A stretch of DNA of 53,679 nt. Origin: Bacteroidales bacterium. GTDB lineage: Bacteria; Bacteroidota; Bacteroidia; Bacteroidales; WCHB1-69. The notes under the pieces are model-generated. The model was not told the DNA's origin and made no database searches. It saw only the letters and a list, made by a program, of their open reading frames with translations. Positions 8,275 to 48,358 of this stretch are shown here, in pieces; position 1 is the first letter of the stretch; each line of letters starts with the position of its first letter. Made by a program: the position numbers and the translations under genes. The stretch is from NCBI GenBank assembly GCA_017525245.1, contig JAFXTE010000023.1, positions 1 through 53,679 on the forward strand. The letters are read 5' to 3'.

Positions 8275-8397
8275 TCAACCACCAAAGCCAGTACAATTAC
8301 AATAATCGTCAACAATTGTGTTTTGGGGTTCTTGATTTTGAGCAACTAACTCATTCAAACGATCTAACGTCGCTTTTGAAATTTCAAACTTTTCCAT
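8275..8397 (-). CDS. putative RiPP precursor peptide, 40 residues
   Basis: ATG at 8397 opens a 40-codon frame ending in TGA at 8275. The product starts MEKFEISKATLDRLNELVAQ, a charged, probably helical leader-like half, and ends VDDYCNCTGFGG, a short Cys/Gly-rich core-like tail. It begins 5 nt after the stop of the radical SAM gene, so the two are almost certainly one transcript. The leader/core layout and the neighbour are what one expects of a substrate for a radical SAM peptide maturase. It does not match the classical GG-Bacteroidales precursor pattern I know, in which the GG is internal. Being a substrate is inference; that the gene is real rests on position and composition. Confidence 0.6.
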   Translation of the reverse strand: MEKFEISKATLDRLNELVAQNQEPQNTIVDDYCNCTGFGG

Positions 8398-8402
8398 AAT
8401 GA

Positions 8403-9488: not shown

Positions 9489-9494
9489 GATTAT

Positions 9495-10349: not shown

Positions 10350-10368
10350 TGAATATAAATGGTGCCGA

Positions 10369-10491
10369 TCATCTCCCTCGTTGTAATCCAGCTTGATAGT
10401 GTGCTGGGCAACAATATCCTCCAAATTTCGCGAGTACACTTAACGAAAAATATAATCCACACCACTTACACTGCCCCATTTGTTCACTCAT
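10369..10491 (-). CDS. 40-residue zinc-ribbon-like small protein
   Basis: ATG at 10491 opens MSEQMGQCKWCGLYFSLSVL and runs 40 codons to TGA at 10369. The segment CKWCGLYF...KFGGYCCPAHY has the spacing of a small zinc-binding fold: Cys8 and Cys11 as one knuckle, Cys27/Cys28 and His31 as the other. It is the first gene of the cassette, 19 nt before the formyltransferase ATG. It could be an accessory zinc protein, but a second Cys-rich peptide substrate cannot be excluded. No named family is recognised. Confidence 0.55.
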   Translation of the reverse strand: MSEQMGQCKWCGLYFSLSVLAKFGGYCCPAHYQAGLQRGR

Positions 10492-12388: not shown

Positions 12389-12439
12389 CAGACAATCAAT
12401 CAACTTTTTTATTATTCATCCACCCAAAAAAGTAACATT

Positions 12440-13192
12440 ATGGACGAAATCTCAACCAACCTCAGAAGCCTGAAGATGCCCGGGATGGCGCACTTCTGGC
12501 AAACCCTACAGGAAACCCACCGCCACGACGAGCTCTCCCTGAAGGACGGCCTGCAGATGATGATACAGGCCGAGCTTGACAACCGCACGATGAGCCGCAA
12601 CGCGAGGCTCCTGAAGAGGGCCCGCTTCCGCTACCAGGCCTCCGTCGACCAGCTCATCTTCGACCCCGCCCGCGGTCTGGACCGCCAGACGGTGCTCAAC
12701 CTGGCCACCTGCGACTACATCAGGCACGGTGTCGCGGTCAGCATCACCGGCGCCGCCGGCACCGGCAAGAGCTGGCTCGCATCCGCCCTCGGGCACCAGG
12801 CCTGCATGAACGGCCTGAAGGTGGCCTACTTCAACCTCTACCGGCTCTTCGAGGAGATAACCCTGGCGCGGGTGTCGAGCAGCCTGCACCGCTTCTTCGA
12901 CAGGCTGGCGCAAACCGACCTGCTCATACTCAACGACTTCGGCATGAAGGTCCTTGACAGTCAGCAATTACTTGACTTTATGGAGATTATCGAAGACAGG
13001 CACGGGAAGAAAGCTACCATCATAGTCTCGCAACTCCCGGTCTCGGACTGGTACGACATTCTCCAGAAAAACACCACTGCTGCCGACGCGATACTCGACA
13101 GGCTCGTGCACACGGCGGTGCGTGTCGAGCTCAAGGGCGACAGTATGCGGAGGAAAAAAACGGGCAAAGAAAACGCGGACAAGGAAAAATGA
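12440..13192 (+). CDS. istB: IS21-family helper ATPase IstB
   Basis: IstB is a DnaA/DnaC-related AAA+ ATPase that selects target DNA and stimulates IstA. The 250-residue protein has Walker A GAAGTGKS, Walker B LLILNDFGMK, and the usual N-terminal segment (LKMPGMAHFWQTL). The Lys/Glu-rich C-terminus ends close to the right end of the element. It appears intact. Confidence 0.95.
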   Translation: MDEISTNLRSLKMPGMAHFWQTLQETHRHDELSLKDGLQMMIQAELDNRTMSRNARLLKRARFRYQASVDQLIFDPARGLDRQTVLNLATCDYIRHGVAVSITGAAGTGKSWLASALGHQACMNGLKVAYFNLYRLFEEITLARVSSSLHRFFDRLAQTDLLILNDFGMKVLDSQQLLDFMEIIEDRHGKKATIIVSQLPVSDWYDILQKNTTAADAILDRLVHTAVRVELKGDSMRRKKTGKENADKEK

Positions 13193-13621: not shown

Positions 13622-14377
13622 TTATTTCACCCACTCCAGACGATAAAAATATCCTACCTCTGGATTCGTAAGAACATATTCGTAACTTTTGGAATAAGAG
13701 TTGAAAGTTACTGTTTCCAATATCTGATAATCAGTTGGGACCCCACTATTAATGGGCTTGCGCATAAATCGGGCTTTTTCGGAAAAGTTGGCATCTTTAT
13801 ATGCCAGTATCACCCGAAAATCCACAACGCTAATGGGTTCTTCAACTTTGACATCAAGGTGCGGCTGTGCAGTGTTGTCCACATCATCCATACTTGCATG
13901 AAAATGCACTACAGCCGATTCATTGTAAGACAGTGCCTTTTTGAATTTAAGGACAACGTGATCATAGTCGTTTGATGTGTTTTCAATTATTGTCCCATCA
14001 CAATTCTGAAGAGTTGAACTAATAATCGGCGGTTTTGACCCCGTCCACTTAAAAGCCCATTTGATATTCGACAGAAAAGCACGTTTTGATTGAATCAGAC
14101 GATACCCATCATATACAATATGCGTTTGGTCGATGTGTTCGTATTTCGTGAAAAACGAGAGTTTTAAATATTCCCTGTCAAATTCTTTATGAACAATCTT
14201 ATGGATAGCATACCATACAGAAAGTAGCAGTGCCACAAGGAAGACGATGATGGCAATTAACACTATAATCACCTTGTTTTTGTCCGAACTCAAGGCAACA
14301 AAAAAACCTGCGATAGAAGCAATACCACTCAGAATCGCAAGCCAAAACAACAGGGTCTCTTTTGTTTCTCCCTTCAT
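13622..14377 (-). CDS. two-TM, beta-rich membrane protein, 251 residues
   Basis: Two transmembrane helices lie close together at the N-terminus (LLFWLAILSGIASIAGFFVA and VIIVLIAIIVFLVALLLSVW). About 180 residues follow that look beta-rich and end GYFYRLEWVK. No catalytic motif is seen. The layout, two N-terminal TM helices plus a beta domain, resembles 2TM-beta effectors of CBASS-type defence systems (the Cap15-like group), but I see no sequence signature that proves membership. It has its own TATCTTTG box, so it is probably transcribed separately from the upstream HTH gene. It closes the large envelope/GTPase cluster on the same strand. Confidence 0.6.
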   Translation of the reverse strand: MKGETKETLLFWLAILSGIASIAGFFVALSSDKNKVIIVLIAIIVFLVALLLSVWYAIHKIVHKEFDREYLKLSFFTKYEHIDQTHIVYDGYRLIQSKRAFLSNIKWAFKWTGSKPPIISSTLQNCDGTIIENTSNDYDHVVLKFKKALSYNESAVVHFHASMDDVDNTAQPHLDVKVEEPISVVDFRVILAYKDANFSEKARFMRKPINSGVPTDYQILETVTFNSYSKSYEYVLTNPEVGYFYRLEWVK

Positions 14378-14445
14378 ATCTTTTTGATATTTAATCAGTT
14401 CCCATATCGAATGTTATTATAATATACAACTTATATTTTAATGTG

Positions 14446-14453
14446 CAAAGATA
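14446..14453 (-). promoter_or_regulatory. -7 promoter box for the two-TM gene
   Basis: The minus strand reads TATCTTTG, 68 nt before the ATG at 14377; a TTTG lies roughly 15 nt further upstream. Confidence 0.45.
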
Positions 14454-14520
14454 CAAAAAGTTTTGTTACAAACAACGTACTATACAAATATTTTTCACGA
14501 TTCAAAACACTCTCTCAAAT

Positions 14521-14811
14521 TCATTTCCCCACTTGCACATCGGTCACCGTGTATTGGCCGTTCTCTGCAATCTCCACCGTGACCGAAAACTTGAGCGTCT
14601 TTTTGGAACCTTTTGCAGCATACAATTCCGTGACGAAGTCATGCTCCAATACCTTGGAGATGCGCTGGAGCAGAGGCAAGTCTATATCCTGACGTTTGAA
14701 AATGTCATAGACGTTTTGCCGATGGCAATTTAGCCTTCGTGCAAACTCGCTTACGCTCAATCCCGATGCGTCAAACACTTCTTTCACTCTTTCTCCAGCG
14801 TGCTTTTTCAT
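14521..14811 (-). CDS. small HTH (XRE-like) regulator, 96 residues
   Basis: Residues about 17-40 (LSVSEFARRLNCHRQNVYDI) form a lambda-repressor/XRE-like helix-turn-helix. The C-terminal half (LKFSVTVEIAENGQYTVTDV) is a short beta-hairpin-like region of a type common in small Bacteroidales regulators. DNA binding is likely; the target is unknown. The gene follows the PP2C gene after 54 nt on the same strand, so it may be the last gene of that operon or a monocistronic regulator of it. Confidence 0.75.
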   Translation of the reverse strand: MKKHAGERVKEVFDASGLSVSEFARRLNCHRQNVYDIFKRQDIDLPLLQRISKVLEHDFVTELYAAKGSKKTLKFSVTVEIAENGQYTVTDVQVGK

Positions 14812-14865
14812 TTTTGTTTAATTTTTAGTTTGTTTGTTCAACTCGTAAGAGATCTTATTCGGCTT

Positions 14866-16308
14866 TCATTTGTTGTTAGGCAGTTCATCGTAATAGATGC
14901 TCACTATTTTACCCTCTTTGTCAAGGATCACATGATAATGAAGGACGTAATCCGATTTCTTCGATTTTGTTGAATCTACTATGTCATTCTTGTAATCCTC
15001 AATAAAATCGACTAACATTTCACCATTGGGTAATAGTTCTGTCTTCCAAGTTTCCCACCTGATATTCACATGTTTACCGGAAACACCGAATTTCCGGTCG
15101 TAATTCTTAAAATCCCTAACCACTTTCGCATTACTAATGTCGGTTGCCTTGAAATACCGTCGGACTTGAGCCGCGTATGATTGCGAGATGGTCTCAAAAT
15201 CATTCTCTTCAATAGCTTTCGAATAAAGGGCAATCGCCCTTACTGGATTTATAGTCGAAACAGAATCAATTAAAGTGTCCGTCTGCGCTTCAGCACTTGA
15301 TTCGGATTTCGATTTTGCCAGTGCCAGTCGTATCATCTGTTCTTCAAGTTTATGCATTCTTTCGTCTTTTGCCTTTAAAGACACGAGCAAAGCGATACAA
15401 ATACCCAAGAGAAGAACTGAAATGACTGTCAAAATCGGAATCATCATGTTGATTTTCCTCTTTTTCGTATCTGGTGTGTCGGGCAAAGTTTCCTTTTGTT
15501 GTTCCTCAATTTGCGAGTCGTCGTTTTCTATTATCGGACTTTCAACCTCTTCCGCTTGGTATTCCACCAACACCACCGTGACATTGTCTTTTCCTCCTGC
15601 GTCGTTGGCGGCATCAATCAAAGCCTGCACTTTTTCTTCAAGCGAAATGGGTTGCTCCAATATCGCTACAATCTGGTGTGAGGTGACCAAATCCGTCAGG
15701 CCGTCGGAGCAAAGCAGAAATGTGGAATTGGGCAGTAGCGGGAATTCTGCCGCTTCGAGAAAGTCAGGGTCGCCGACCTCGTGACGATCTGAACCCACAA
15801 CGCGGCTTATCACATTGCGTTGCGGATGATGCATGGCCTGTTCTTCCGTCAAATCACCGATCTCTTCACGGTAGCCAATCAGGGAATGGTCGTGGGAAAT
15901 CTTCCTGAGTTCACCGTGATGATATTGGTACATACGGGTATCGCCTACGTGTACCATGTCCACCACCTTCCGCCCCGCATCTATCAACGCGGCGGTGAGC
16001 ACACAGCTCATGTCCGGGCGTGCCGTGTCAAGCCGCCGCCGGTCGTAAATGGCGTTATTCGCACAGACGGCAGCCTGTTTCAGCAGTTCCAAACACTCGC
16101 CACGGGTAAACTCTTTCAGATAGGCAGGTATCTCCTTCTGTGCCATCTCGGCAGCCACCTCTCCCCCTTCATAGCCGCCCACACCATCGATAGCGACAGC
16201 AAGGACAGTGTGTTCATCCAACTGTTCAACCACAAACGCATCTTCGTTGCTGGTGCGCTGATGGCCTACGTCGGTTTGGCCGTAAAACATTATTTTTTCA
16301 TCATTCAT
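14866..16308 (-). CDS. membrane-anchored PP2C-family Ser/Thr phosphatase
   Basis: The N-terminal 250 residues are a PP2C (PPM) phosphatase, which removes phosphate from Ser/Thr with Mn/Mg. Visible motifs are VAIDGVGGYEGGE (metal-binding DGxGG), MVHVGDTRMY, LLCSDGLTDLV and GGKDNVTVVLVEY, so the active site looks complete. A Glu/Asp-rich linker leads to one TM helix (residues about 286-311) and then about 165 residues that should lie outside the cytoplasm and resemble an NTF2/SnoaL-like fold. The start lies 24 nt after the transpeptidase stop. No Ser/Thr kinase is encoded nearby, so the phosphorylated partner must come from elsewhere or be unconventional. Confidence 0.88.
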   Translation of the reverse strand: MNDEKIMFYGQTDVGHQRTSNEDAFVVEQLDEHTVLAVAIDGVGGYEGGEVAAEMAQKEIPAYLKEFTRGECLELLKQAAVCANNAIYDRRRLDTARPDMSCVLTAALIDAGRKVVDMVHVGDTRMYQYHHGELRKISHDHSLIGYREEIGDLTEEQAMHHPQRNVISRVVGSDRHEVGDPDFLEAAEFPLLPNSTFLLCSDGLTDLVTSHQIVAILEQPISLEEKVQALIDAANDAGGKDNVTVVLVEYQAEEVESPIIENDDSQIEEQQKETLPDTPDTKKRKINMMIPILTVISVLLLGICIALLVSLKAKDERMHKLEEQMIRLALAKSKSESSAEAQTDTLIDSVSTINPVRAIALYSKAIEENDFETISQSYAAQVRRYFKATDISNAKVVRDFKNYDRKFGVSGKHVNIRWETWKTELLPNGEMLVDFIEDYKNDIVDSTKSKKSDYVLHYHVILDKEGKIVSIYYDELPNNK

Positions 16309-16332
16309 AACAGTTATCTGGTAATGTGATTT

Positions 16333-18951
16333 TTATCGTTGTCCAAATCTCGTTCTTGTCAACCAACAGAATCTTTGTAGCCTTTGTGGATTTGCAGAGA
16401 AAAAATCCCGTGCATGATGAGACCACAAACCATCTGCATTATCTTTTTTAGTAGAAATCCTTGTGATTCGAATCACACACACTATGCCGTCGCCAACACC
16501 TTCGTCTTTTATGGAATTGTACGCGCCCCTTGTCATCAATCCCATGCAATAAAGCCCCACGTCATATCGAAGTTTAGTGTTGTCTATATTCAGATATTCT
16601 TTCCAATCATAATTGGCTGGGGTACCGGTTTTAGAAAAAAGCATCAAACGATTATTACCTATAAGATGCATATTTTCATTAACATTGGTTACCACATCAT
16701 ACATTGAGCTTAACAATCCATAGTTATGGTCTTTTTGTGCAGCCGCTAGGGTATCGAGAAAGCGATCCCATAAATCGTAATCGTAGTCCGGAATAATAGC
16801 AGGGGTGTTTTCAGTTGGATTTGTTATGCATACTTGGATTTTTCGTTTGGTGAGCATCCGACACCAAGCTTCTGCTAGTTTTAAGCAGCTCCACGAGTTA
16901 CTACCCTGCCCTAATACCCAAGGCCTAAGATTTCCGCTTACCGTATATGGTGGTTTATCAAAGTCTTCGTAGTGCATCACAGTCATGTCAGGACTTACTA
17001 TATCTACAGAATGTGTTTGGTCTTCATCGAGACGCCCCCAGCCTGGTATATTTCGCCAAATATAACGTTCCATCTTATAATTGGCATCATTTTCGTTTTC
17101 ACTTTCAGTATAGGAGTTAATATCGTATAGTTTTGCGAGATTTCTCATCAGCTGCATGTTGTTCCAATGAAACCGTCCGCTTTCTCTTTCGCTATAGTAT
17201 CCAAGATGCCCATCTTGCCCCCGTGCTGTAAAAACATCAGAATTAGCATTCGGCCTCGGCTGTCGATTCCCATTCAACGCTAACACCGTCATGGCAACAG
17301 GATATACATCGCACGATGCCGCAAGAAATTGCTCAATCGAACATCTACCCCACCAATGGGGAACAGATCCCCAGTATTCAACTGGGAATCCAAACATTTC
17401 TGCATTTCCGACATCACGCAAGCCATACATACGATTACTTACAGTATTTAAATCCATCAAGTTCGGTTCCGTTTGGACAGCAGCTAAAGTGAGTAATGGT
17501 TTGAACGTTGACCCTATATAACGTCTCGTCAATGCTGGGTTTTTACGACTTAATGCAACCTCCAGTGGAAGATTATCGTCTTCACTCCGATAATACGGCA
17601 TAGCAATAATAGCTCCAGTAGACATATCGATCACAGTAACTGACATCTCCCATCGGTCATCAGGTCTTCCAATTCCCCGACTTATAATATCGGATTTTAA
17701 CCCCTTGGTATATGTTTTTATTTCCTCCTCAAGCCATTTCGACAAGTACGGGTCAAGAGTTAATTGCACAGCAGAATCTATTCCGTTGTCAACAAGCATA
17801 TTGTACACTCCTCTCACTGCTTGCTGCGTAAACCTATCCGTCAGACTTGCATCTATCGCATATCGGCTAAGACCTTGATTGTTTCGTGTTGGACTTGACA
17901 TAGTAAAGATAGGGTTATGATGTGTAAGCATCATTTCGGCAACCTTTTTGTTTGTGTGGTCATAAAATGCAATTTTCAAATCTCTTGAAAAATCAACTGT
18001 GTCATAATTACCACCAGCAGAAGTCGGGTTGATATACGAAGGGCCTTCTCCTATTGCATAGAAGATGCAACGCAACCGGTCATCTGTTTTTGTGTACAAA
18101 GTCGTCTCATCAATGTACTTCAAGGTAAGTGTACCAATCCGTGTTCCTTGAGCATTCTGCAAGAAAAGTCCCACCTCCCTTGGCGAACATCTATAATCAT
18201 CCATCGAAAGGTTGACCATATTTATCGGGGCGTTTGCATGCAAGAACTCATGACCAGACAAATCTGCTGTAAAATAGATAGGCCTTGAACCCGAACATTG
18301 TTTGATTGGCAGAATATTTTTACCAAAAGAAAGGAAACAAAAATTATTTTCAGGAAACAAACCATAATCCGTTGCCATAATAGAACCTTTCCATATTTTT
18401 TTGTCGTGATACACACGGAAAAGAGAAGTTATGAGTCTAATGTCCCGTATTCTAATTTGGCCATTTTCTTTCTTGAATCTGATTTTGAAAAAATTAATGC
18501 TTGGGTCACTTCTCTGCTTTTCAAGCAAATTTTGCAGATTGCTGTTATAGAAATGTTCCTTGTCTTTTTCGTCTTTTATTTTAGTGGGATCAATGTCCGT
18601 AAGTCGGATATCCGATGTGTGTATAAAAGATGATTCGCTGAATTCGATATCGTCAGCATACGGTAGGCTGAAAGTCAGGGCTTTATATCGCCTGTTCAAG
18701 TCTTGAAGATTTTTTATTGAAACCACCGAGGTGTCCTCTATCAACAACAAATCCGCCAACAACTTGTTCGTTTTTTGAACGCCTTCCGAATCTTTTGACA
18801 AATTATAGGTTTGTGGCTTAGCTTCTTTACCTGAAGTGCTTTTGTGTAATACAATCGGTCCTACAACAAAAACACATAAAGCCACAATGCCAGTCAAACA
18901 CCAGCTAAATATCTTGTAGTTACTGTCTATTTTTGATGAAAAGTTTTGCAT
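16333..18951 (-). CDS. penicillin-binding-protein-like transpeptidase, 872 residues
   Basis: One N-terminal TM helix (IFSWCLTGIVALCVFVVGPI) anchors a large extracytoplasmic protein. The C-terminal half has the transpeptidase motifs: SxxK as STFK with Ser481, KTG in FSKTGTP at 774-776, and between them SCD at 546-548 where SxN is usual. The spacing fits a class B PBP. I see no glycosyltransferase domain; about 400 residues before the active site are of unknown fold. I chose the ATG at 18951 because it lies 10 nt after the previous gene; a start at 18990 would overlap that gene. Paired with the SEDS-like gene of the same operon, it suggests a dedicated cross-linking enzyme. It is clearly diverged from FtsI/PbpA. 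Confidence 0.82.
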   Translation of the reverse strand: MQNFSSKIDSNYKIFSWCLTGIVALCVFVVGPIVLHKSTSGKEAKPQTYNLSKDSEGVQKTNKLLADLLLIEDTSVVSIKNLQDLNRRYKALTFSLPYADDIEFSESSFIHTSDIRLTDIDPTKIKDEKDKEHFYNSNLQNLLEKQRSDPSINFFKIRFKKENGQIRIRDIRLITSLFRVYHDKKIWKGSIMATDYGLFPENNFCFLSFGKNILPIKQCSGSRPIYFTADLSGHEFLHANAPINMVNLSMDDYRCSPREVGLFLQNAQGTRIGTLTLKYIDETTLYTKTDDRLRCIFYAIGEGPSYINPTSAGGNYDTVDFSRDLKIAFYDHTNKKVAEMMLTHHNPIFTMSSPTRNNQGLSRYAIDASLTDRFTQQAVRGVYNMLVDNGIDSAVQLTLDPYLSKWLEEEIKTYTKGLKSDIISRGIGRPDDRWEMSVTVIDMSTGAIIAMPYYRSEDDNLPLEVALSRKNPALTRRYIGSTFKPLLTLAAVQTEPNLMDLNTVSNRMYGLRDVGNAEMFGFPVEYWGSVPHWWGRCSIEQFLAASCDVYPVAMTVLALNGNRQPRPNANSDVFTARGQDGHLGYYSERESGRFHWNNMQLMRNLAKLYDINSYTESENENDANYKMERYIWRNIPGWGRLDEDQTHSVDIVSPDMTVMHYEDFDKPPYTVSGNLRPWVLGQGSNSWSCLKLAEAWCRMLTKRKIQVCITNPTENTPAIIPDYDYDLWDRFLDTLAAAQKDHNYGLLSSMYDVVTNVNENMHLIGNNRLMLFSKTGTPANYDWKEYLNIDNTKLRYDVGLYCMGLMTRGAYNSIKDEGVGDGIVCVIRITRISTKKDNADGLWSHHARDFFSANPQRLQRFCWLTRTRFGQR

Positions 18952-18961
18952 AACCTTAACT

Positions 18962-21961
18962 CTATTTTTTTTGATAGGTTTTAATCTCATTCAATTGCTG
19001 AATAATCCATAGGTAGTAGTCAGTTCGTCCCAATGTCCGCAAATGCCCATTTTTTCGCTCAAAATCTGTATTGTCAATAACTCTCCCATTACAACTCACA
19101 ACATTACATCCTTGCAACGTATCATTTGCCAAGATTTGCATCATTAGAGGGTTTGTGCTGCTGACAGAAACATTGATGGTATCTCTCGGATGTTTGCTAT
19201 CAATGCATTTTAACCGTAACGAAATAGTGTCGGCTGATGATTTATGTAAATTGTCCAACGCAAAACTGTAATATTCCACAAGGGGTCTCAAGCGTGAAAT
19301 GAACCAAATGCTATCGGAACTAATATGAAGACAGAATGTCGAATCCACATTTGAAACTTTCATTTCAACGAAAGCGGAAACATCGTGTTGGTACAGCGAA
19401 TCAAGATATTTGTTCGCAAACAACAGTATTGGATGTATGGAGTCTAACGGAACACAATTCCATCCTAAAGAATCAGAGACAGTATCGTTTATCAACATTT
19501 TGTAGTAAAGAGTATCGATTGGCAAAGCTGGGGGTTGTGGATCCAGAGGTGTCGGGAGCGATTTATCACAGCCCCTCATCAGTATCACCAAAGAGATAGC
19601 GATCCCCACAATAACTGCAAGTGCAACGATACAAAACATAATCCATTTCCTGCCCCAACCCTTTATTGTTTGTACCAACCTATTGAATAAGGATTTCGGC
19701 ATTGACGATTTCAAGCAATCTGCCTCGTTCTCACGTCCTGTGTTTTTAAGTAATGCCATGAGGTTTTTTGTGGAATGCTTTAAGAATAGTTTCGCTTCAC
19801 GAGAAATATTCTTGCTCTTTTCGGCAGTGTTGAGATGGGTATAGTAATCAATGTATTTTGAGCACAATTTTTTCTTATCCTCATCGCCGAGTTCAAAAAT
19901 TCTATTTGCTATCAATTCAAACCACTTGGAAACACACGTTTGAGGCTTGTCAAGAAGTTTCCAAAATGACATTTTATCCAAAGAGGTCTCCGACAGTAAT
20001 TCCTCACGAATATATCTGACGGCCATGCCATTTAATACTTTGTCACGTTTGTCAACAACTCGTTTTTCCTTTATATTGTACAAATCCTGAAGATATACGA
20101 CTATTTGATTACCACTTGTTCTGTCATCAGATTTGATTATTTGGTTGATTCTGTCGCCTGTAATTGCATTTAATACGAAATCGGAACAACCATCTTTGAG
20201 GGTTGCAATCAAACCGCTCAAGTCGTTCATCTTAAGAGAGAAGTATTTTTCCGAAAGTAATACACCGATTTCTTTGGACTCAAAGGAATTCAATAACGAA
20301 GATAAATCTTCCTCGAATTTTCTGCTGTCAACAGGTCGCGATGCATTGTCAATATCATCTTTAATTGACGGGAAGAATCTTCTGCCGTAGCGACATGCGA
20401 TATCAGCATAATCATTCAATGTCGCCCTTAGAGGAGCAACTTTATCATATAGTATTTTACAATCGTCTTCTGTGAATCGCTTTTGTATTTTTTTGAAAAG
20501 TTCCGGAGGAATCCTATCAACCCAATTGACGTTGAATGGCAATTTGATAATATCTCGACGATTATTCATTTTGCCAAACAGTCGATTGAAGTCCGCCCAG
20601 TTCTTAACAACGAACGATTTTTCCAAAGAGAGACCAAAATAGGGATTGTCCAAGCGGGCGATTTTCTCGTCCTCTGTCCATTTTTTTGCTGAGTCTTTGA
20701 TTTTATCCTGTAGATTCTTTGACAAATCTGATCTGGGGTTGTCAGCACAAGCATCAACAAGTCTGCTATCTGCCAACACCTTTCCTTCGATGACTTTGCG
20801 AATTTCGGAAATATCTTTATTGTTGTCGTAAATATCAGACAATTGTTGAAAAGAACCTGATTTGTTCACATTATCCTTAAGCAGAGTGATGTAAGTATTG
20901 TCGTTTCTCAAATCAGGGTATTCCTTAAAAACAGCTTTGCTAAATGTTTTTGTCATCCCCAGCACCGAAAGCCATAACATTCGAAGTGACACATCCTTGT
21001 GCAAATAAGAGTGGTTGCCAGCGTTGAACCACCTTTCAATAGCCACAACATCAGTGGTTGAAAGAGATTTAGCTTTGTCCACCGTAAGACAAGGAAAATC
21101 GTCTATCTTTTTTCCCACCGTGCCCACAAGAGTGGAAAAATCTCTAGTTGACAACACCCTATCGGTATTGTACACTGACATTAACCTATCAAAAACAGCC
21201 ATTTCCCGTTCATCAACAGCTCCGAACTTTCCACAAATAGTGTCAGTTCTCCAATCAACAGTTATGGCATCAGCCGCCCACTCTCCCCAATCGGAAACAT
21301 CATCGAAAATGGCAAATACAACTATTTCAGTTGCTATTTGATCATAGACCCTTGACTTGTTCTCAACACCGTATGCCACCGACACATATCGTCGCCAAAA
21401 TTCAGGCAGTTGGGACACAGCTGCAAGTATGGTCTTCAACTTGGTGGCATTACGAACGGCGTCCCCTTTCACCTTATCTCCATCACCCAGCTTGACGAAA
21501 ACTTTTTTGTTCCCCAAAACACCTTGAATAATAGCATTTTTAAGAAGTTGTACATCTCCACTCATTGAAACAATCGGGGTTGTCAATGGCACCTCCACTT
21601 CATTGGAAGCACCATAGTATCGGGATGTATATTCCTTGAATTTGTCTAATGACGGCAACAAAGTTGAATACGAGTATTGTATTTTCTCAAACTCCGATGG
21701 GCTAAGCTCATATAACGCACGTTCATCGTACCAACGGTTATGCTCAGGAAAGGCCGTGAATTTCGCCTGATAATGCATAATAGTATAAAGACCAGTACTT
21801 GGATAGAGGAAAAACAACATCGAAGCATAGTCTTCAGAGGCGAAAAAATCAGACATCAATATTGCTCCTCGTTCCGAAACTTTATTAGTAACGGAAAGTA
21901 TACCATCCGCCCTATCGTTTACCGTGGAGCCCAAGACCTTATGTTCAGCAATAATAATCAT
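18962..21961 (-). CDS. GTPase-associated protein 1 (GAP1)-like protein with C-terminal TM helix, 999 residues
   Basis: The N-terminal 250 residues (KVLGSTVNDRADGILSVTNK, then FRLSPSE-like YELSPSEFEKIQYSYSTL, LPEFWRRYVSVAYGV) have the layout I associate with GTPase-associated protein 1, the usual partner of double-GTPase proteins in predicted conflict systems. The middle is mostly helical. A TM helix at about 772-797 (WIMFCIVALAVIVGIAISLV) is followed by roughly 200 residues outside the membrane. It is thus a large cytoplasmic scaffold tied to the envelope. It lies 10 nt after the GTPase gene and 10 nt before the transpeptidase. The family call is from memory of pattern, not a profile search. 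Confidence 0.6.
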   Translation of the reverse strand: MIIIAEHKVLGSTVNDRADGILSVTNKVSERGAILMSDFFASEDYASMLFFLYPSTGLYTIMHYQAKFTAFPEHNRWYDERALYELSPSEFEKIQYSYSTLLPSLDKFKEYTSRYYGASNEVEVPLTTPIVSMSGDVQLLKNAIIQGVLGNKKVFVKLGDGDKVKGDAVRNATKLKTILAAVSQLPEFWRRYVSVAYGVENKSRVYDQIATEIVVFAIFDDVSDWGEWAADAITVDWRTDTICGKFGAVDEREMAVFDRLMSVYNTDRVLSTRDFSTLVGTVGKKIDDFPCLTVDKAKSLSTTDVVAIERWFNAGNHSYLHKDVSLRMLWLSVLGMTKTFSKAVFKEYPDLRNDNTYITLLKDNVNKSGSFQQLSDIYDNNKDISEIRKVIEGKVLADSRLVDACADNPRSDLSKNLQDKIKDSAKKWTEDEKIARLDNPYFGLSLEKSFVVKNWADFNRLFGKMNNRRDIIKLPFNVNWVDRIPPELFKKIQKRFTEDDCKILYDKVAPLRATLNDYADIACRYGRRFFPSIKDDIDNASRPVDSRKFEEDLSSLLNSFESKEIGVLLSEKYFSLKMNDLSGLIATLKDGCSDFVLNAITGDRINQIIKSDDRTSGNQIVVYLQDLYNIKEKRVVDKRDKVLNGMAVRYIREELLSETSLDKMSFWKLLDKPQTCVSKWFELIANRIFELGDEDKKKLCSKYIDYYTHLNTAEKSKNISREAKLFLKHSTKNLMALLKNTGRENEADCLKSSMPKSLFNRLVQTIKGWGRKWIMFCIVALAVIVGIAISLVILMRGCDKSLPTPLDPQPPALPIDTLYYKMLINDTVSDSLGWNCVPLDSIHPILLFANKYLDSLYQHDVSAFVEMKVSNVDSTFCLHISSDSIWFISRLRPLVEYYSFALDNLHKSSADTISLRLKCIDSKHPRDTINVSVSSTNPLMMQILANDTLQGCNVVSCNGRVIDNTDFERKNGHLRTLGRTDYYLWIIQQLNEIKTYQKK

Positions 21962-21971
21962 TTGTGCAGAT

Positions 21972-24218
21972 TTAGTTTCTGTCTGTTCCCCTAATAAAAT
22001 TCAGAAAATCACCAATAGCATCCAAACTTTGCGGAAGCATCCTTCCTCTGTTTTTCATAACATCCTCCATAAGCTGAAGTGAGCCGAAAAAGCACCTAAG
22101 GCGTGCATCTTTAGAACGTCCCATAATACCCTCCTCCCCGAATTCATCAATGGTATATTTATCATCTACTGGAGTTGCAATAAAATATGTATGTTGAGGT
22201 ATATTGCAAAGGGTGCTTTCTCCTATTATTCCTTTAAATATATCTAATGCGTCTTCAATTTTTTGCTTAGCTTTGGCATCTATATTAACAATGTTAAGAG
22301 GTGGGGTTATATTTTTGCAATTTTCACACATAGTTCTGCAAGCAACAAAACAACTTGGTATTTCCTCATTCTCTTCACCTATAGTTTTGCCAACAGAGGC
22401 TGCCGCTGCCGAATAGATAATATTATGGCAATGCTTTTCTTCTATCCTTATATTCTCATAATAGGATTTAAACACATCCTTATCAAAAAATGTATCGGCA
22501 CCTTTTATTCCCAAATAAATATTCTTGCCTAAATCCCTTAATGGTCTGAGACTGATGGCATCATTAAACCACTGCTCCGATTCTTGTTGTCCGACAGAAG
22601 AATTGTTTAATATTTTATCAATAAGCACTATATCTGTTGCGTTAAACAAAAAATGGTAGAAATAAAAATTATATGCAACGTGTGTTTTGTAGAGTTCTTC
22701 ATTTATTCCTAATCTTATGTTATTTATATCAAGATCGGGAAACAAATCCACTAGGGCGTTGTATATCGAATCCGCATCAAAGTCATAAAAATTATTTATA
22801 AACTCCTCCCCTGTTATTTCATCGCTATGATCACATTTGTATTTGGTCTCCATATACGATAGTACATCTTCCTTCGTGGCATATTCACGGTGCCTAACAA
22901 CATTTATTGCTTTTGTTTGATACGTGTTGGAAAGAGTATTCGTAGGACTATTATTAGATTCACTATCCTCAGGATTATGATTTGTTTTCCCATTAAGCTC
23001 AATTGTCTGCACTTGATTCTCGTGTGAGTCTTTCCATGTTTTCGCAATAAAAAGTTTCTTTTTAGATTTCTTCAAACCATCATACAAAAGGCTGCATAAC
23101 GCGAAACGATCTATCGTGACTTTTTCGTTGTTAATAGTTGCTTCTTCTTTTTTTACAGCCTCACCAGGTATATCTAAAAAACTGAATTTAAAAGTTTTCG
23201 TTCCGTCAGAAAATTCCGAACAATAATGATTTTTATGACGGCAGGCATAGTTAGGTGTTTGAGGAGTCAGACGATACCCTGGAGCTTCTGTATCGGCCTT
23301 AAAGACGCTAAAAGGCCTGAACCTACCTATATTCGAGTCCACTCTCCTATAGTTCAAAAATTTTCCATTGGTCAAAAGACTGACAACATCTTCCAAAAAA
23401 TATGTTTTTCCAGCAGCAGGAGTACCCACCACTGCCAAACGGATATCGTTTTTATCCGTCTTGAACAAATCTCGTAATTTCAATTTCATAACTATTATAT
23501 TATTATGGTTATTAAATAAGATTTTTTTACTTCCTATTATTCTCATATTACACTTTCCTGCCATCCTGTTAACGATCTCCGCCAAAAGAGGTTCGTAAGC
23601 AGGAGCAAAATCCAAATCGCAAAGCAAATTTATGGGCATGGAAAAAGTCCTCCCTGTATCACGATGCTTATATTGGCAGCTATCCTCGCCGTAAAGAGGC
23701 AACAAAAATGATGGTCCCTTGAGTTTCGTTTTGCTACTGTATGGAGAACCCGTCAATGCGGAATAGATGGCAACAGCCTTTTCGGTATCATTCCGACATT
23801 CTCCGATTGTTTCCATCACATTCTCCACAGCGGTGAGCACAAGAATGCTGTCGTTTCTTCGCTTTTCTTCCATCATCACATTACGCACCCGCAGAATGTC
23901 AATTCTGTTTTCCTGATATTCGTCAGCAGGACATATCATAACAATTAACTCGTATTTGTTTGCCCATTCGCGCAAGGTGCCAAGATTATTGCAGTCGCCG
24001 CTGTATGGCTCGTACACCACAACAGCAGTAAATTCTTTTTCCTTACCCTTTATGTTTTTACTCACCGTCAACATATTACCCTTGGCAGAAACCGCGAAGC
24101 CGCAACACTTTTTGGACCAACAACTGGTATACACCTCCGCCAATCGTGTCGCAAAAACGTTCACATCACGATTTGGAAGATTCCCAAAATACAATATGTT
24201 CACGATGAGATCAGGCAT
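21972..24218 (-). CDS. P-loop GTPase resembling double-GTPase (DO-GTPase) proteins, 748 residues
   Basis: LAVVGTPAAGKTYF gives a Walker A with Lys271, and FSFLDIPGEAV near residue 347 fits the G3 DxxG motif with the PGE extension seen in DO-GTPases. TDIVLIDKIL may serve as the G4 region. Residues 1-250 form a separate domain without a P-loop (LREWANKYELIVMICPADEY, LVLTAVENVMETIG) and could be a degenerate nucleotide-binding domain. A Cys cluster (CRTMCENC) may bind metal. The gene is 3 nt from the upstream membrane protein and 10 nt from the GAP1-like gene. It is probably the nucleotide-driven switch of the system. GTP rather than ATP specificity is inferred from the G3 motif. Confidence 0.7.
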   Translation of the reverse strand: MPDLIVNILYFGNLPNRDVNVFATRLAEVYTSCWSKKCCGFAVSAKGNMLTVSKNIKGKEKEFTAVVVYEPYSGDCNNLGTLREWANKYELIVMICPADEYQENRIDILRVRNVMMEEKRRNDSILVLTAVENVMETIGECRNDTEKAVAIYSALTGSPYSSKTKLKGPSFLLPLYGEDSCQYKHRDTGRTFSMPINLLCDLDFAPAYEPLLAEIVNRMAGKCNMRIIGSKKILFNNHNNIIVMKLKLRDLFKTDKNDIRLAVVGTPAAGKTYFLEDVVSLLTNGKFLNYRRVDSNIGRFRPFSVFKADTEAPGYRLTPQTPNYACRHKNHYCSEFSDGTKTFKFSFLDIPGEAVKKEEATINNEKVTIDRFALCSLLYDGLKKSKKKLFIAKTWKDSHENQVQTIELNGKTNHNPEDSESNNSPTNTLSNTYQTKAINVVRHREYATKEDVLSYMETKYKCDHSDEITGEEFINNFYDFDADSIYNALVDLFPDLDINNIRLGINEELYKTHVAYNFYFYHFLFNATDIVLIDKILNNSSVGQQESEQWFNDAISLRPLRDLGKNIYLGIKGADTFFDKDVFKSYYENIRIEEKHCHNIIYSAAAASVGKTIGEENEEIPSCFVACRTMCENCKNITPPLNIVNIDAKAKQKIEDALDIFKGIIGESTLCNIPQHTYFIATPVDDKYTIDEFGEEGIMGRSKDARLRCFFGSLQLMEDVMKNRGRMLPQSLDAIGDFLNFIRGTDRN

Positions 24219-24221
24219 TTT

Positions 24222-25562
24222 CTATTCTTTTCGGCGTTTGGTGTAGGCTACAAATATGCTGAGCAGAAGGGGCAGCACATCAATGGTTGCACTAAGCATT
24301 ATGCTGAGATAAAGCAAGCGGCTTTCAAACTGGCGGTCGTATCTTATAAAAGGATTCTTTTCTTCGGCAGCCACAATTTCCTTTCCATCTTCATTTGATG
24401 AAGTGACAACACCTTGGAATGCTCCAAGAAGTTTGTTGATGGACGAAAACCTATCGTCGCGCGTTTTCTTGAGGCGGTTTATTGCCCAACAAACAGTATC
24501 GTTAGAATTGTCAAAAGTGTATTTTTTCGCCACACACAACGAATCCTGATTGATTCGTGCAATGTTAGCATCGAGATCAAAAATGAATCTGGTTAACGTG
24601 GAAAGGTCTTGTTTCGTAAAATTGTCTTTATCGTTTTGGTATGAATTACACATCTGGGTGATGGAATCTTGTGTGTCATACATATTTTCAGCTGTTACAC
24701 AAATTCCTCTTAAGACATTCAGAGCGTTTCTTTCTTTCTCTATTCCTTTCTCCTTTTTTGACGCTTGAATTCTCAAAGCATTTGCTCTTGAATAATAATT
24801 GTTCCGTGCTCTATAGTTTTCTTCATTATTCATCACTTTTGCCTTATTGTCATAATCCTCTGCCCTATCATTAAGATTGTTTATATCCGACAAAACGCCC
24901 GATAAACTTTCTGAAATGTCAACGGTGTCTTTAATTACTGATTCACGAATATGGCTTATAACCGGTCCTTGCTGTCTTATATACATCTCGCACGCCTGAA
25001 CATCCCTACTCATATTCTGCGTGTCGCTAATATTGTCGTAAAAATGGATGAAATTGAAGCTAAATGCCGTCGCGATGTCAAACAGGATATAAAAAATACT
25101 ATATGCCACGATGTGTTTTCCGGCCGATATCATCAATAAGCAGAACAAAAGTGCCAGGCATATCAGTGTCGAAAATGCCAACAAGAAGAATCCCCCTTTC
25201 CCTGAGACATAAAGAAATTTCAACCCTTTTAGAGTGGCCCAAAATGTAAGACCAAGGAATCCTATCACAACCACATAATACAGCAGGCTCAACCATGACA
25301 TTTCATTAAACAGTTCCCTAAAAGAGAAAACCTTGTGTTCTTCGGAATCTATTCTCACAATATCTATGTCGTCAACCCTATTTCGCCATTTTTTATAGAT
25401 CAAACCTGTTATTGCTCCCGTCAACAGCAATATCATAAAAATGATTACCGTATGGAATTGGGGGTAACCATAGAGAAAGTATATTGTCAGGAATGTGGCC
25501 GGCAGTATCCAAAACAGATTTGGGATAGCCCAGGAAAGCAAAAATTCCAAAAACTTTTTCAT
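24222..25562 (-). CDS. polytopic membrane protein with central coiled coil, 446 residues
   Basis: Four or five hydrophobic helices fill the first 170 residues (for example LLYYVVVIGFLGLTFWATL and HIVAYSIFYILFDIATAFSF). A charged helical stretch of about 200 residues follows, of coiled-coil type (NNLNDRAEDYDNKAKVMNNE), and one further TM helix near the C-terminus (LLYLSIMLSATIDVLPLLLS) leads to a short basic tail. The shape resembles membrane proteins with a long extracytoplasmic or cytoplasmic coiled coil used as a spacer. No family is recognised. It is coupled to the GTPase gene with only 3 nt between them, which argues for a joint complex. Confidence 0.75.
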   Translation of the reverse strand: MKKFLEFLLSWAIPNLFWILPATFLTIYFLYGYPQFHTVIIFMILLLTGAITGLIYKKWRNRVDDIDIVRIDSEEHKVFSFRELFNEMSWLSLLYYVVVIGFLGLTFWATLKGLKFLYVSGKGGFFLLAFSTLICLALLFCLLMISAGKHIVAYSIFYILFDIATAFSFNFIHFYDNISDTQNMSRDVQACEMYIRQQGPVISHIRESVIKDTVDISESLSGVLSDINNLNDRAEDYDNKAKVMNNEENYRARNNYYSRANALRIQASKKEKGIEKERNALNVLRGICVTAENMYDTQDSITQMCNSYQNDKDNFTKQDLSTLTRFIFDLDANIARINQDSLCVAKKYTFDNSNDTVCWAINRLKKTRDDRFSSINKLLGAFQGVVTSSNEDGKEIVAAEEKNPFIRYDRQFESRLLYLSIMLSATIDVLPLLLSIFVAYTKRRKE

Positions 25563-25583
25563 TATATTGTCTTTATTGGTGCT

Positions 25584-26048
25584 CTAATCATCTAAAAGCA
25601 AATTCAACATGTTTTGTGCGCTTTCGCTTCCTTGTTCAGCGGCTTTGCGATACCATTTTATGGCTTCATCACGGTTTTCCTTCACACCTAATCCATAATG
25701 GTACATGGCTCCGAGACTGTCTTGCGCCGCCGCATAACCTTGCTCAGCGGAAAGGAGATACCATTTCAACGCCTGTGAAATATCTTTCACACAACCTTCT
25801 CCAAAATAAAACATATAGCCAATGTGGAATTGGGCTTTGGCATCTCCTTGTTCAGCGGCTCTACTGTACCATTTCAATGCCTCTGCATAATTCTGCTCCA
25901 CATCCACTCCTTCGTAATACAATTCACCAACCATTATTTGGGCTCTGGCATCTCCATTCTCTGCTTGCTTTAGTAAGGCAGCCCATAACAGTTTCTTTGC
26001 CTCCATAGTCACATTGTCGTCTTTAACTTTTAAATCATTATTTTTCAT
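25584..26048 (-). CDS. Sel1-like repeat (TPR-type) protein, 154 residues
   Basis: At least three Sel1 repeats are visible, each about 36 residues with the core AxxxLGxxYxxGxGVxxNxxEAxKWYxxAAEQG: ARAQIMVGELYYEGV, AKAQFHIGYMFYFGEG and AAAQDSLGAMYHYGLG. Such repeats form a protein-binding solenoid. There is no signal peptide, so it should be cytoplasmic. It lies between the SEDS-like gene (43 nt) and the coiled-coil membrane protein (21 nt), and is probably an adaptor within the complex. Confidence 0.9.
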   Translation of the reverse strand: MKNNDLKVKDDNVTMEAKKLLWAALLKQAENGDARAQIMVGELYYEGVDVEQNYAEALKWYSRAAEQGDAKAQFHIGYMFYFGEGCVKDISQALKWYLLSAEQGYAAAQDSLGAMYHYGLGVKENRDEAIKWYRKAAEQGSESAQNMLNLLLDD

Positions 26049-26091
26049 AACTCTATCTTATTAAACTTTAATAAACATTTTTATTTCACAT

Positions 26092-28932
26092 TTAGCTTTC
26101 ACCTCTTTCTTTATAAGGATTGGACGCCAACATAAAAGCAATTAGTATTGACGTTTCAAGGGCTTCGCCCACAGAATCCACACCAAATCCAGGATTAAGC
26201 CGTCCTGTGAAAGGCAATACCCCACAATACGACAAGAAAAGGTACAAGGATGTGCCTACCCACATAAACATGGCAAGGGTTCGCCAATACACCCATCGCC
26301 CAATACCAATATTAATATTCTCCCGCTCCCCCTTACTTAACGAAACCACGGGGTACACGGCGTTCTTGACAATCAACCAGCAAAGAAGTGCCAATAATCC
26401 GAAATAGACAACGTATGTACTCCAACCGTATGCCCCCAAAAAGCAACCCTGTATTGAAACGTCATTCTGAACCACAGAAGCTTGCCCAGTGGAGACTGAC
26501 GGGTGAAGGATGTGTTCATCATTAGATAAAGGATCTGAAGCGATGCACTCTTTTCCGTTGAACATGTAGTGTTGCATCACACGCACAAACTCCGCATCGC
26601 TTTCTGCATAACGTTTTCCTGATTGGGAGTATTCTTCCCAATTCACAAGTAGATTGACACGTCTTTGCGACCTATTTGAATTAATATCAGAATACGAAGT
26701 AATTAACCATGTCACAAAATAAAACAACAATACCACTACAAGAGTTGTTAGAAATGCCACCCATCCTTCCTTTTCGGGTTGAGGGCCTTTATTTGCACCA
26801 TAAGTTTTCTGTGTTATAATGTACACAAAAAAAATAAAGAAAATAAATCCGACAAAATTTGTAATGTAGCCGAAATCATGACCTCCCCAACAAGAAACAA
26901 TTATAAAAGAAAGGCTTATTCCAAGATAACAAACCATTGCTTTGCTGAAACTCATACCCTCTCCGAGTTTCACTGTACGAAAAGCTCCGCTCATAAATAC
27001 AATTACTAAAAATGTTATAAATGCGGTAGCAAAGTTACCTGAGAGAAACCTTAACAAAAGAATAGCGACAACCCCAACAAGCATTTTCTTCCACCAATCC
27101 CATTTCTCAAAAGTTTCTGAACCCCGTTCAACAACCTCACACAACTTTTCACGAAAAACAAGAACAAGTACAGTAGTTACAAGCATAATGAAATTAGCCA
27201 GCAGAAGTGCATATGGTATATTGAAAAAAGTGTCATTCATGCCATTCATCTTCCCCCATTTACAAATCTTCCAACTTGAGAATGATAACACTTCGGTATT
27301 TACATCACCTGGAAGATAGGACCTTAATACAGAATAAAAGTGAGTGTCGTTCATCTTATCAAAGACGGCACACATTACAATTAAACCCACTAAATACAAA
27401 ACCGGGAATAACCAAGGCCAATTTTTTCTCCATATCGGTTTTGAAAAACTCCTATCCGCCACAATAAATTTCCAATTAATAATGGAAGAAATTCCTAAAA
27501 CCAACAACAACATTAGACAAACTGAGACCATATTCACCCCAAACACATTTTCAAAATAAGGATAAGTAAAGCCAAGTTTCATTGCTATCATTACCTTGCA
27601 AATAATGTATGCAAAATAAATCAAGAATATAGCTGGCATGTATGTTGGCAAAGAATCCATCCAACGCCCCTCATGTTCTTTGGTATTATCATAATTAATT
27701 TTTGGAAGAAGCATCAAAAGCATTAAAACCACACATAAAAACAGGAAAAATAAAGGAACCGTGATGCATGACCATAAAAAAGGTCCATCCAACAATCCAA
27801 CACGCACACTTATCTCACCATTAACTCCCGCTGTGGCTTTTTCAAAAGTTGGGAAACAGTGAGAAGAACGTAACGGTCTGTTATCGCAAAAGATTGTATC
27901 TCCCGAAAATCGCAAGTTGCAGATGTCCGCCGAAACTTGGCTGGAAAACGCTGGAATGGAAAGCATATTGCTCGTTGGAAAGCCACCGTCATCTTGGCGG
28001 TAGGTCAGCAACCCTGAACTTTTTTCAGAGGCACTCTTCAATTCTTCCACACGTTCCACGTATGTGATGGGTTTCGGAAAATAGCAGATCAATTTATCTT
28101 CCTCATTGCGTTCAACCAATACGTGTCCAGCCCCCCATTCAGTTGAAACCACCACAGGCTTGGCTATATAATTGACACTTTTTATGGCAAAATATTCCCT
28201 TTTAACTTTCTTTTCCATGTATGCGGCGGGAGTCATTCTGAAAAATTGCACCTTGGCTTTGCCTCCGAATCGGGAATCGGATCCCGTCATTGCGTACCTT
28301 ATTTCTTTGTTATCGTGATACAATGTGGTCCGGTCATCCAGAATCACAAGTTGACATTTTCCCAGCTTATTGTCCAAAAGGCCTTCTTTATTTCGATAAA
28401 CAAACGATTTAATACCCCTGTCTTTAAAAAAATCATATCCTTGTTGAAATGTCGTATCTAATTCCACCTGCTTTTTCCCGAGAACATAGCGTAACATTAC
28501 ATATTGGTTATCCACCCCTTTGAGCATTTCGGATATGTCTCGAACAGTAATAACAGCGGCTTCTGATTCACCATCTGAGAACGATATGGTAATCCGATCG
28601 TCCTCGCTCAAATCATGTAAATTGGGATTTTTATCATTAATTTTGTAATACCAAAGGCTGTCCGTATTCCTGTATCTTTCGTTAACCTGCCACCTTATGG
28701 AGTCCTTCTCCACAAACACTTCCAAATAGTCATGCGGAACTTTATCAAAACACACATCTGATTCGTCACCAACTGTGAAAGCTTGTGTATTACTTGTCAT
28801 CTCGAAATTGTCAACATGCATCACAACACGGTCATCAATTTGCATAAACATGCTAACACAGATGACAATCAGAATTATTGCCACTGCACAAATTACAGTA
28901 TTCCAAATCTTCACTTTCGTTATTATATCCAT
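26092..28932 (-). CDS. FtsW/RodA/SpoVE (SEDS)-like polytopic protein with large N-terminal soluble domain, 946 residues
   Basis: SEDS proteins polymerise lipid II into glycan strands together with a class B PBP. After one TM helix (residues 12-30) come about 350 soluble, beta-rich residues, then about 12 TM helices. The C-terminal part carries the SEDS pattern: VVQNDVSIQGCFLGAYGWST resembles the TDFxFAxxxEExGxxG segment, with Asp824 at the place of the conserved Asp, and SYCGVLPFTGRLNPGFGVDS followed by VGEAL resembles the GxxPxTGxPLPFxSxGG segment. Ordinary FtsW/RodA are about 400 residues and lack the N-terminal domain. It is the first gene of the operon, with the matching transpeptidase five genes on. 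I judge it a diverged paralogue, not the housekeeping enzyme. Confidence 0.8.
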   Translation of the reverse strand: MDIITKVKIWNTVICAVAIILIVICVSMFMQIDDRVVMHVDNFEMTSNTQAFTVGDESDVCFDKVPHDYLEVFVEKDSIRWQVNERYRNTDSLWYYKINDKNPNLHDLSEDDRITISFSDGESEAAVITVRDISEMLKGVDNQYVMLRYVLGKKQVELDTTFQQGYDFFKDRGIKSFVYRNKEGLLDNKLGKCQLVILDDRTTLYHDNKEIRYAMTGSDSRFGGKAKVQFFRMTPAAYMEKKVKREYFAIKSVNYIAKPVVVSTEWGAGHVLVERNEEDKLICYFPKPITYVERVEELKSASEKSSGLLTYRQDDGGFPTSNMLSIPAFSSQVSADICNLRFSGDTIFCDNRPLRSSHCFPTFEKATAGVNGEISVRVGLLDGPFLWSCITVPLFFLFLCVVLMLLMLLPKINYDNTKEHEGRWMDSLPTYMPAIFLIYFAYIICKVMIAMKLGFTYPYFENVFGVNMVSVCLMLLLVLGISSIINWKFIVADRSFSKPIWRKNWPWLFPVLYLVGLIVMCAVFDKMNDTHFYSVLRSYLPGDVNTEVLSFSSWKICKWGKMNGMNDTFFNIPYALLLANFIMLVTTVLVLVFREKLCEVVERGSETFEKWDWWKKMLVGVVAILLLRFLSGNFATAFITFLVIVFMSGAFRTVKLGEGMSFSKAMVCYLGISLSFIIVSCWGGHDFGYITNFVGFIFFIFFVYIITQKTYGANKGPQPEKEGWVAFLTTLVVVLLFYFVTWLITSYSDINSNRSQRRVNLLVNWEEYSQSGKRYAESDAEFVRVMQHYMFNGKECIASDPLSNDEHILHPSVSTGQASVVQNDVSIQGCFLGAYGWSTYVVYFGLLALLCWLIVKNAVYPVVSLSKGERENINIGIGRWVYWRTLAMFMWVGTSLYLFLSYCGVLPFTGRLNPGFGVDSVGEALETSILIAFMLASNPYKERGES

Positions 28933-29000
28933 TTTTATGCCATATATTCTTTACATACTCAACTTCGCACATTCGCATTGTTAATCTTTACAACACCGCA

Positions 29001-29038
29001 CAAAAAGAAAGTGGAGCTTCAGTTCAACAGTCTCCACT
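29001..29038 (-). terminator. intrinsic-terminator-like hairpin upstream of the SEDS-like gene (possible attenuator)
   Basis: On the minus strand AGTGGAG pairs with CTCCACT (29010-29038), followed by TTTCTTTTTG. A second GC-rich hairpin (GGGGTC...CTCCCC, 29043-29058) lies directly before it. The position, about 70 nt before the operon start and about 240 nt after a promoter box, suits an attenuator or the end of a small RNA. Confidence 0.55.
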
Positions 29039-29244
29039 CGGTGGGGTCTGGACTCCCCGTTAGTAAGATACTGAAGAACAAGCCCCACCTGTTTGTATTT
29101 GGCAATAAATACTCACAAGCAAGCTTGATTTCCGATATCCGTACTAACATTCGCGAATTGTCCAGATTCACCGAGACGGATAAGCGAAAACTCGCTTTCT
29201 TTTCAATAAAAACCGCTGCCCTGCCTTTCGGCAAAACAACGGTG

Positions 29245-29252
29245 CAAAAATA
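29245..29252 (-). promoter_or_regulatory. -7 promoter box of the envelope/GTPase operon leader
   Basis: The minus strand reads TATTTTTGCACCG, a full TAnnTTTG match in the context seen at other starts in this window. It lies 313 nt before the SEDS-like ATG. The -33 region is not convincing. Between it and the ATG I see no credible gene, only a 78-codon frame without protein-like composition. Confidence 0.45.
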
Positions 29253-29423: not shown

Positions 29424-29451
29424 GCTAACTACTAACTGCTAACTGCTAACC
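29424..29451. repeat. 7-nt-period array (CTAACTA/CTAACTG) at the uvrA 3' end
   Basis: Units CTAACTA, CTAACTG and CTAACTG follow each other. Read on the minus strand they provide the last codons (Val-Ser-Ser) and the TAG stop of uvrA. Confidence 0.8.
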
Positions 29452-39435: not shown

Positions 39436-39477
39436 AGGGAGTGTACGCTCCATTAATCTTGTAACCATTTGCTTTAT

Positions 39478-48351: not shown

Positions 48352-48358
48352 TCATAAT

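Follow-up and report, generated by a model that had tools for sequence, protein, structure and literature searches.

SEDS-bPBP pairs are known for growth, division and sporulation. In RodA-PBP2 and FtsW-FtsI, a polytopic protein with a long outer loop that carries conserved Arg and Asp residues, and with an LPxTG-like loop, is joined by a single-TM D,D-transpeptidase; SxD as the second transpeptidase motif is a PBP2 trait. Dedicated sporulation pairs are reserved for one task, as for example the dcw-encoded synthases of C. difficile, for which the excerpts of PMC10693644 used here name no P-loop or GAP1-like partners. The DO-GTPase/GAP1 predicted conflict systems (Kaur et al., 2020; PMC7159879) are of a different kind: in the sections of that source drawn on here, P-loop proteins stand directly upstream of a large partner, and membrane-linked versions are described. 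In its main text the words FtsW and penicillin occur 0 times, PP2C and Sel1 once each, and peptidoglycan 9 times.

The operon described here, from a gut-type Bacteroidales bacterium, shares features with these systems. It encodes a strongly diverged polymerase-like protein together with its own PBP partner and predicted nucleotide-binding switch proteins, and its core recurs in relatives beside a wall-cutting enzyme; as judged from sequence, this suggests a hitherto unstudied machine that builds wall under the control of a switch. Among the open-access titles and abstract starts listed, none concerned an operon of this kind; most subscription papers and bioRxiv preprints fall outside that scope. 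The window, that is the whole stretch of 53,679 nucleotides that was analysed, is the entire contig C3 of a 3.68 Mb assembly in 111 contigs (94.3% complete, 6.5% contaminated). Its uvrA gene (29439-32270, named by reading and matches) encodes a protein that shares 69-74% identity with the UvrA proteins of three genomes from the same genus, and two further genes of the window (46237-49373) show 73 and 84% identity to genes of genome G218; since all three resemble same-genus genes, the contig fits the genus.

As the first-pass annotation had proposed, and as the ORF coordinates confirm, the operon comprises seven minus-strand genes with gaps of 3-43 nt, running from 28932 down to 14866 and encoding, in order, proteins of 946, 154, 446, 748, 999, 885 and 480 aa. 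The successive spacings are 43, 21, 3 and 10 nt, a 29-nt overlap (a 10-nt gap if the 885-aa transpeptidase starts at an inner ATG and has 872 aa), and 24 nt. The likely upstream boundary is a terminator-like hairpin of 14 pairs after uvrA (29212..29243, minus strand), one of 10 such sites in the scanned region, which is fewer than in shuffles (mean 15.7). An ORF of 251 aa with N-terminal TM segments (13622..14377, minus strand) lies 488 nt downstream and is a doubtful member. The seven genes have a GC content of 0.38-0.47, as against 0.54-0.56 in uvrA (0.56) and three other window genes measured; low GC is also found in other stretches of the window. The neighbourhood of uvrA differs in 3/3 same-genus genomes, so that an empty site at uvrA is not demonstrable. 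An IS21-type pair (istA-like and istB, 10820-13192, plus strand; istA-like GC 0.62) lies directly downstream of the low-GC operon, and a second UvrA-like gene (39469-42024), 33-34% identical to same-genus uvrA, lies 7 kb upstream of uvrA. A further low-GC stretch (0.36; 7500-10440) encodes radical SAM and formyltransferase-like proteins near a PF00953 glycosyltransferase, and is perhaps a surface-glycan locus.

Surveys of genomes with single proteins made the operon appear a singleton: the SEDS-like protein was found in 1/393 genomes of the order, the transpeptidase in 1/104 of the family and the P-loop protein in 1/395 of the class, in each case the window's own; a contig scan with the transpeptidase gave no relative. 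This was overturned when patterns from the C-terminal region of that SEDS-like protein were run against the contigs of 84,980 species, yielding at least seven related loci (50-54% identity), a lower bound because the scan used six exact peptide patterns. They come from one Muribaculaceae (rumen source; the RUG isolates are presumably rumen MAGs), one Prevotella, four uncultured Prevotellaceae and one Porphyromonadaceae. An eighth relative, G436, belongs to the window's own family and was found with the SEDS-like profile A1 in 104 family genomes; its gene (L155:215-3163), at a contig end, looks acquired, with a GC content of 0.345 where the remainder of the contig has 0.459. Profile A5 gave no match besides the window's own in 188 genomes of the order. 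No relative was found in viral contigs; plasmids gave no match to four window proteins or to the SEDS-like protein of locus L145, and phages none to the latter.

Five loci (L145, L146, L147, L148 and L150) span the whole operon; L144 starts inside the SEDS-like gene and then shows the same order, and L149 contains the SEDS-like gene and a fragment of the next, GA. The relatives' operon encodes a 4-TM protein (268-281 aa), a membrane GTPase-like P-loop protein K with a TM (604-615 aa), the SEDS-like protein (1006-1071 aa), two adjacent P-loop proteins, GA and GB, the GAP1-like protein (841-916 aa), the transpeptidase (915-932 aa) and a GH25 muramidase with an N-terminal TM (258-271 aa); the order from the SEDS-like gene to GH25 is the same in 5/5 spanning loci and in the two partial ones as far as they reach. 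GH25 follows the transpeptidase immediately in 6/6 loci that extend there (assigned by Pfam on L145, the muramidases of the other loci being 55-85% identical to that of L145). Intergenic gaps are mostly below 35 nt and reach 63, with some overlaps. The transpeptidase gene of L148 (16436-19095) is frame-split between open neighbours, through assembly error or decay. Of the profiles built on these loci, A1 includes partial proteins from L144 and L149, and A5 one from L149; A2 omits L148 (frame-split) and L149 (contig ends), A3 omits L149, A4 omits L148 and L149, and A5 omits L144 and L146.

Against the relatives' profiles, the window's SEDS-like protein scores 5.7e-200, its transpeptidase 4.6e-137, its P-loop protein 7e-41 (GA) and 3.7e-25 (GB), and its GAP1-like protein 4.5e-19, while in the window's operon the profiles of the 4-TM protein, K and the muramidase have no significant match. 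As only these profiles match, the core consists of the SEDS-like gene, the P-loop gene or genes, the GAP1-like gene and the transpeptidase gene, and the rest is exchanged. The first annotation had taken all seven genes as one unit that should travel together: this stands for the SEDS-like/bPBP pair with the P-loop protein and the large single-TM protein, co-ordered in all five spanning loci, a recurrence beyond chance, but not for the PP2C, Sel1 and coiled-coil proteins, for which the operons of the relatives offer no equivalent. In turn, the muramidase, K and the 4-TM protein occur in the relatives only and could not be seen from the window; GH25 was not found in the window's genome. The flanks of L145, L147, L148 and L150 (nine proteins scanned) differ, except for a GYF/CD225 gene common to L147 and L150, and the upstream sides of L145 and L146 look alike by ORF sizes. 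The GYF_2 and CD225 (interferon-induced transmembrane family) proteins are encoded upstream on the opposite strand (L147:2432-3496 and L150:1732-2643).

The SEDS-like protein (946 aa; 26092..28932, minus strand) is called SEDS-like from its topology, motifs and structural alignment. It has a single N-terminal TM, then a predicted outer domain of about 350 aa, which RodA and FtsW lack, and finally a polytopic part, in which a long loop (about 745-836) carries R754-x-x-R757 and D824; LPFTGRLNPG is also present. R754, R757, R758, D824 and T909-G910 are invariant in 7/7 proteins, the conserved Arg and Asp residues lie between predicted helices, and these residues, LPFTG and GNFATA occur in SEDS order. 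E. coli FtsW requires R243, R246 and D297, according to the portion of PMC8765783 used here; R754, R757 and D824 were equated with these by eye, and the R-x-x-R/G-Y pattern occurs in 0/33 canonical SEDS proteins. Unlike in RodA and FtsW, the Y-G-G of ECL5 is lost, being replaced in 8/8 members. A two-motif SEDS signature is found in 8/9 family proteins, 13/33 canonical SEDS proteins, 0/507 control ORFs and 5/8400 block shuffles; patterns of three or four motifs fit 7-8/9 of the family but 0/33 canonical proteins, so that patterns of two motifs alone count as evidence for SEDS.

Profile comparisons are negative throughout: neither the 946-aa protein, which has no Pfam match at all, nor its L145 counterpart matches PF01098, its score against a profile of 33 canonical SEDS proteins is not above shuffles, and hhalign against canonical SEDS reaches at most 4.6%. 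In VIA-align, FtsW occupies rows 1 and 2 for the model of the protein, as a weak best structural match; Foldseek returns mostly adenosine receptors, with a best E-value of 0.057. The original SEDS call thus holds as far as motif order and a weak structural match to FtsW support a SEDS-like protein, not a proven SEDS protein. The same assembly also carries three canonical SEDS loci (L001, L002 and L003), by reading one RodA-like and two FtsW-like; the third may stem from the 6.5% contamination or be a true extra copy. The protein might alternatively be another lipid-linked glycan polymerase or ligase of the GT-C(B) type, Wzy- or WaaL-like, in an operon that builds or anchors a surface polymer. 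This is unlikely, given Asp rather than His at the presumed loop position, the SEDS-type LPFTG and GNFATA motifs, a structural ranking that places FtsW above WaaL, and the co-encoded D,D-transpeptidase, joined by a muramidase in the relatives.

The transpeptidase (16333..18990, minus strand) has an N-terminal TM and the motifs S494-T-F-K497, S559-x-D561 and K787-T-G-T; it thereby shares with PBP2 the SxD form of the second motif and, with both classical pairs, the single-TM layout of the partner. It matches PF00905 above cut-off (5.6e-6, 26.2 bits against 22.1), whereas the L145 protein, taken singly, stays below it at 20.2 bits. S494, F496, K497, S559, D561 and K787-T-G-T are invariant in 6/6 aligned proteins, and the sole PDB match of the profile at E-values up to 0.01 is FtsI (0.0085). 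By its sequence, then, this is a real transpeptidase with the SxxK, SxN/D and KTG domain of class B PBPs, as first annotated. The pair could also be part of a sensory or scaffold system, in which a catalytically dead SEDS-like protein and the transpeptidase, with the outer domains, sense the state of the wall and report it to the P-loop proteins. The lost YGG motif, the large outer domains of several members and the outer domain of the window's PP2C would suit such a sensor, which we nevertheless regard as distinctly improbable: R754, R757, R758 and D824 are invariant, and the motif residues of the transpeptidase are kept at 32-33% identity.

The P-loop protein PL748 (748 aa; 21972..24218, minus strand), a predicted NTPase switch with GTPAAGKT and DIPGE motifs, is the single-gene counterpart of the adjacent GA and GB; its first 245 aa match no assigned domain. 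In 11/11 P-loop members, the G and K of the P-loop are unchanged, as is the IPGE stretch; by eye, the fourth motif is atypical. The only Pfam match of PL748 is PF19993 (DO-GTPase2), at 22.1 bits and 1.3e-4, below the cut-off of 27; 3/11 members match this family at E-values up to 0.1, with 1.3e-4 the best. In hhalign against a profile of ten DO-GTPase1 proteins, profile A4 reaches 87% (E 3.7e-6), GA alone 31.5% and GB 77.9%; five controls that lack a P-loop, including two profiles from the same transpeptidase family, stay at or below 1.4%. In a single-sequence control, A4 reaches at least 20% with 3/14 DO-GTPases as against 19/30 other P-loop ORFs. A specific kinship to DO-GTPases is accordingly not supported for the core proteins, since other P-loop ORFs match them at least as well; they can be placed among the P-loop NTPases but in no narrower family, and may use GTP.

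The GAP1-like protein (999 aa; 18962..21961, minus strand) consists of a long N-terminal region, a single TM near 776-796 and about 200 aa after it. Its gene occupies the position held by GAP1 in published systems, but its GAP1 membership is putative: the Pfam domain is absent in 7/7 members, and hhalign against ten GAP1-N1 proteins gives 3.2%, with controls at most at 0.3%, in a test that is insensitive, since a Pfam-positive GAP1-N2 protein scores only 0.2%. The AlphaFold model has a pLDDT of 39.8. Neither the double-GTPase nor the GAP1 assignment of the first-pass annotation was borne out by these comparisons.

Among the operon proteins, a long DO-GTPase2 match is found only in the relatives' extra protein K, which aligns in hhalign to a 473-aa DO-GTPase2 protein of locus L039 at 96% over 255 columns; the best of 30 P-loop controls reaches 74.5% over 29 columns. 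This best match of K lies in an SrfC-type/subtilase operon of Bacteroidota, where it adjoins a 4-TM protein of like layout to that of the relatives. Unlike the relatives' operon, L039 has no transpeptidase or SEDS Pfam match in the ten proteins scanned, and its 4-TM protein shows no significant match to theirs (0.8%). The L039 operon encodes an SrfC-type (Virul_Fac) protein, a subtilase, the DO-GTPase2 protein and the 4-TM protein.

The accessory proteins of the window are a Sel1-repeat protein (154 aa; 25584..26048, minus strand; PF08238, 3.4e-34) and a PP2C phosphatase with a TM and an outer domain (480 aa; 14866..16308, minus strand; PF13672, 1.5e-15), whose Pfam matches agree with their initial naming, and a membrane coiled-coil protein (446 aa; 24222..25562, minus strand). 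The last has an N-terminal TM cluster, a long helical part and a C-terminal TM, a layout like that of the relatives' 4-TM protein, to which it has no sequence match. The PP2C with its outer domain suggests a phosphorylation input; the window's assembly has five kinase matches elsewhere. In a survey, 65/295 genomes of the order, the window's own included, match this PP2C; in 40 such regions, some of only 3-6 kb and 38 of them containing the PP2C ORF, none of the SEDS-like, transpeptidase, GAP1-like, P-loop and coiled-coil proteins had a phmmer match at E-values up to 10. Two neighbours with 9-10 TMs in these regions, considered as SEDS candidates, were read instead as TPR-tailed membrane proteins.

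These data also bear on whether the operon could serve in conflict with phages or other bacteria, as a device of the DO-GTPase/GAP1 type whose effectors are the wall enzymes and in which attack triggers wall synthesis or cutting; we judge this quite unlikely. It would fit the sole, if sub-threshold, match of the P-loop protein to PF19993, the match of K to a DO-GTPase2 protein, the low GC and patchy occurrence, and the match of the PP2C to the PADLOC candidate-defence model PDC-M21C (7.5e-8). The two P-loop genes directly upstream of the GAP1-like gene in the relatives are likewise as in the described systems, which can carry TM and peptidoglycan-binding parts (PMC7159879, in the sections used). 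However, none of the remaining PADLOC matches, from eight proteins of the window and eight of the relatives, is better than 1e-3 (1.3e-3 in the relatives), so that the defence option in the earlier annotation finds no direct support. GAP1, GASH, FNIII and the usual nucleotide or pore effector domains are absent from the Pfam matches of the eight window and eight L145-operon proteins, the core P-loop proteins resemble other P-loop ORFs no less than they do DO-GTPases, and the operon GC of the relatives is close to that of their flanks. A polymerase and a transpeptidase, moreover, would be unusual effectors, and having wall enzymes as partners sets the operon apart from the DO-GTPase/GAP1 systems.

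The explanation we favour, tentatively and as a little short of an even chance, is a self-contained peptidoglycan-synthesis module under nucleotide control. At the outer face of the inner membrane, the diverged SEDS-like protein would polymerise lipid II into glycan strands, which its dedicated PBP2-like transpeptidase would cross-link. The P-loop switch, two genes in the relatives and one longer gene here, would act through the single-pass GAP1-like protein as a relay, whose long, presumably cytosolic part would meet the switch and whose outer part could reach the synthase pair; such partners set the operon apart from RodA-PBP2 and FtsW-FtsI. In the relatives, the anchored GH25 muramidase could open the wall at sites where new wall is inserted, and in the window the accessory layer is a different one (the PP2C and Sel1 proteins and another membrane coiled-coil protein). 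The envelope machine of the first annotation is thereby retained in its private SEDS-like/bPBP pair, conserved with P-loop and single-TM proteins, and not in its link to defence.

It is possible, though rather doubtful, that the operon represents a further SEDS-type machine, distinct from the elongasome, the divisome and spore-specific synthases. Its polymerase would belong to a new GT-C(B) family and come with a dedicated transpeptidase (in the relatives also a muramidase), and paired P-loop switches would govern it through a GAP1-like TM relay; a nucleotide signal, in place of MreB or FtsZ, would then direct the building or reopening of peptidoglycan. As the residues of the ECL4-like loop are kept and ECL5 is rebuilt, the operon provides a natural test of which residues a SEDS protein cannot do without. 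With its own diverged pair and P-loop switch, complemented by a muramidase in the relatives, it would constitute a portable wall-building unit.
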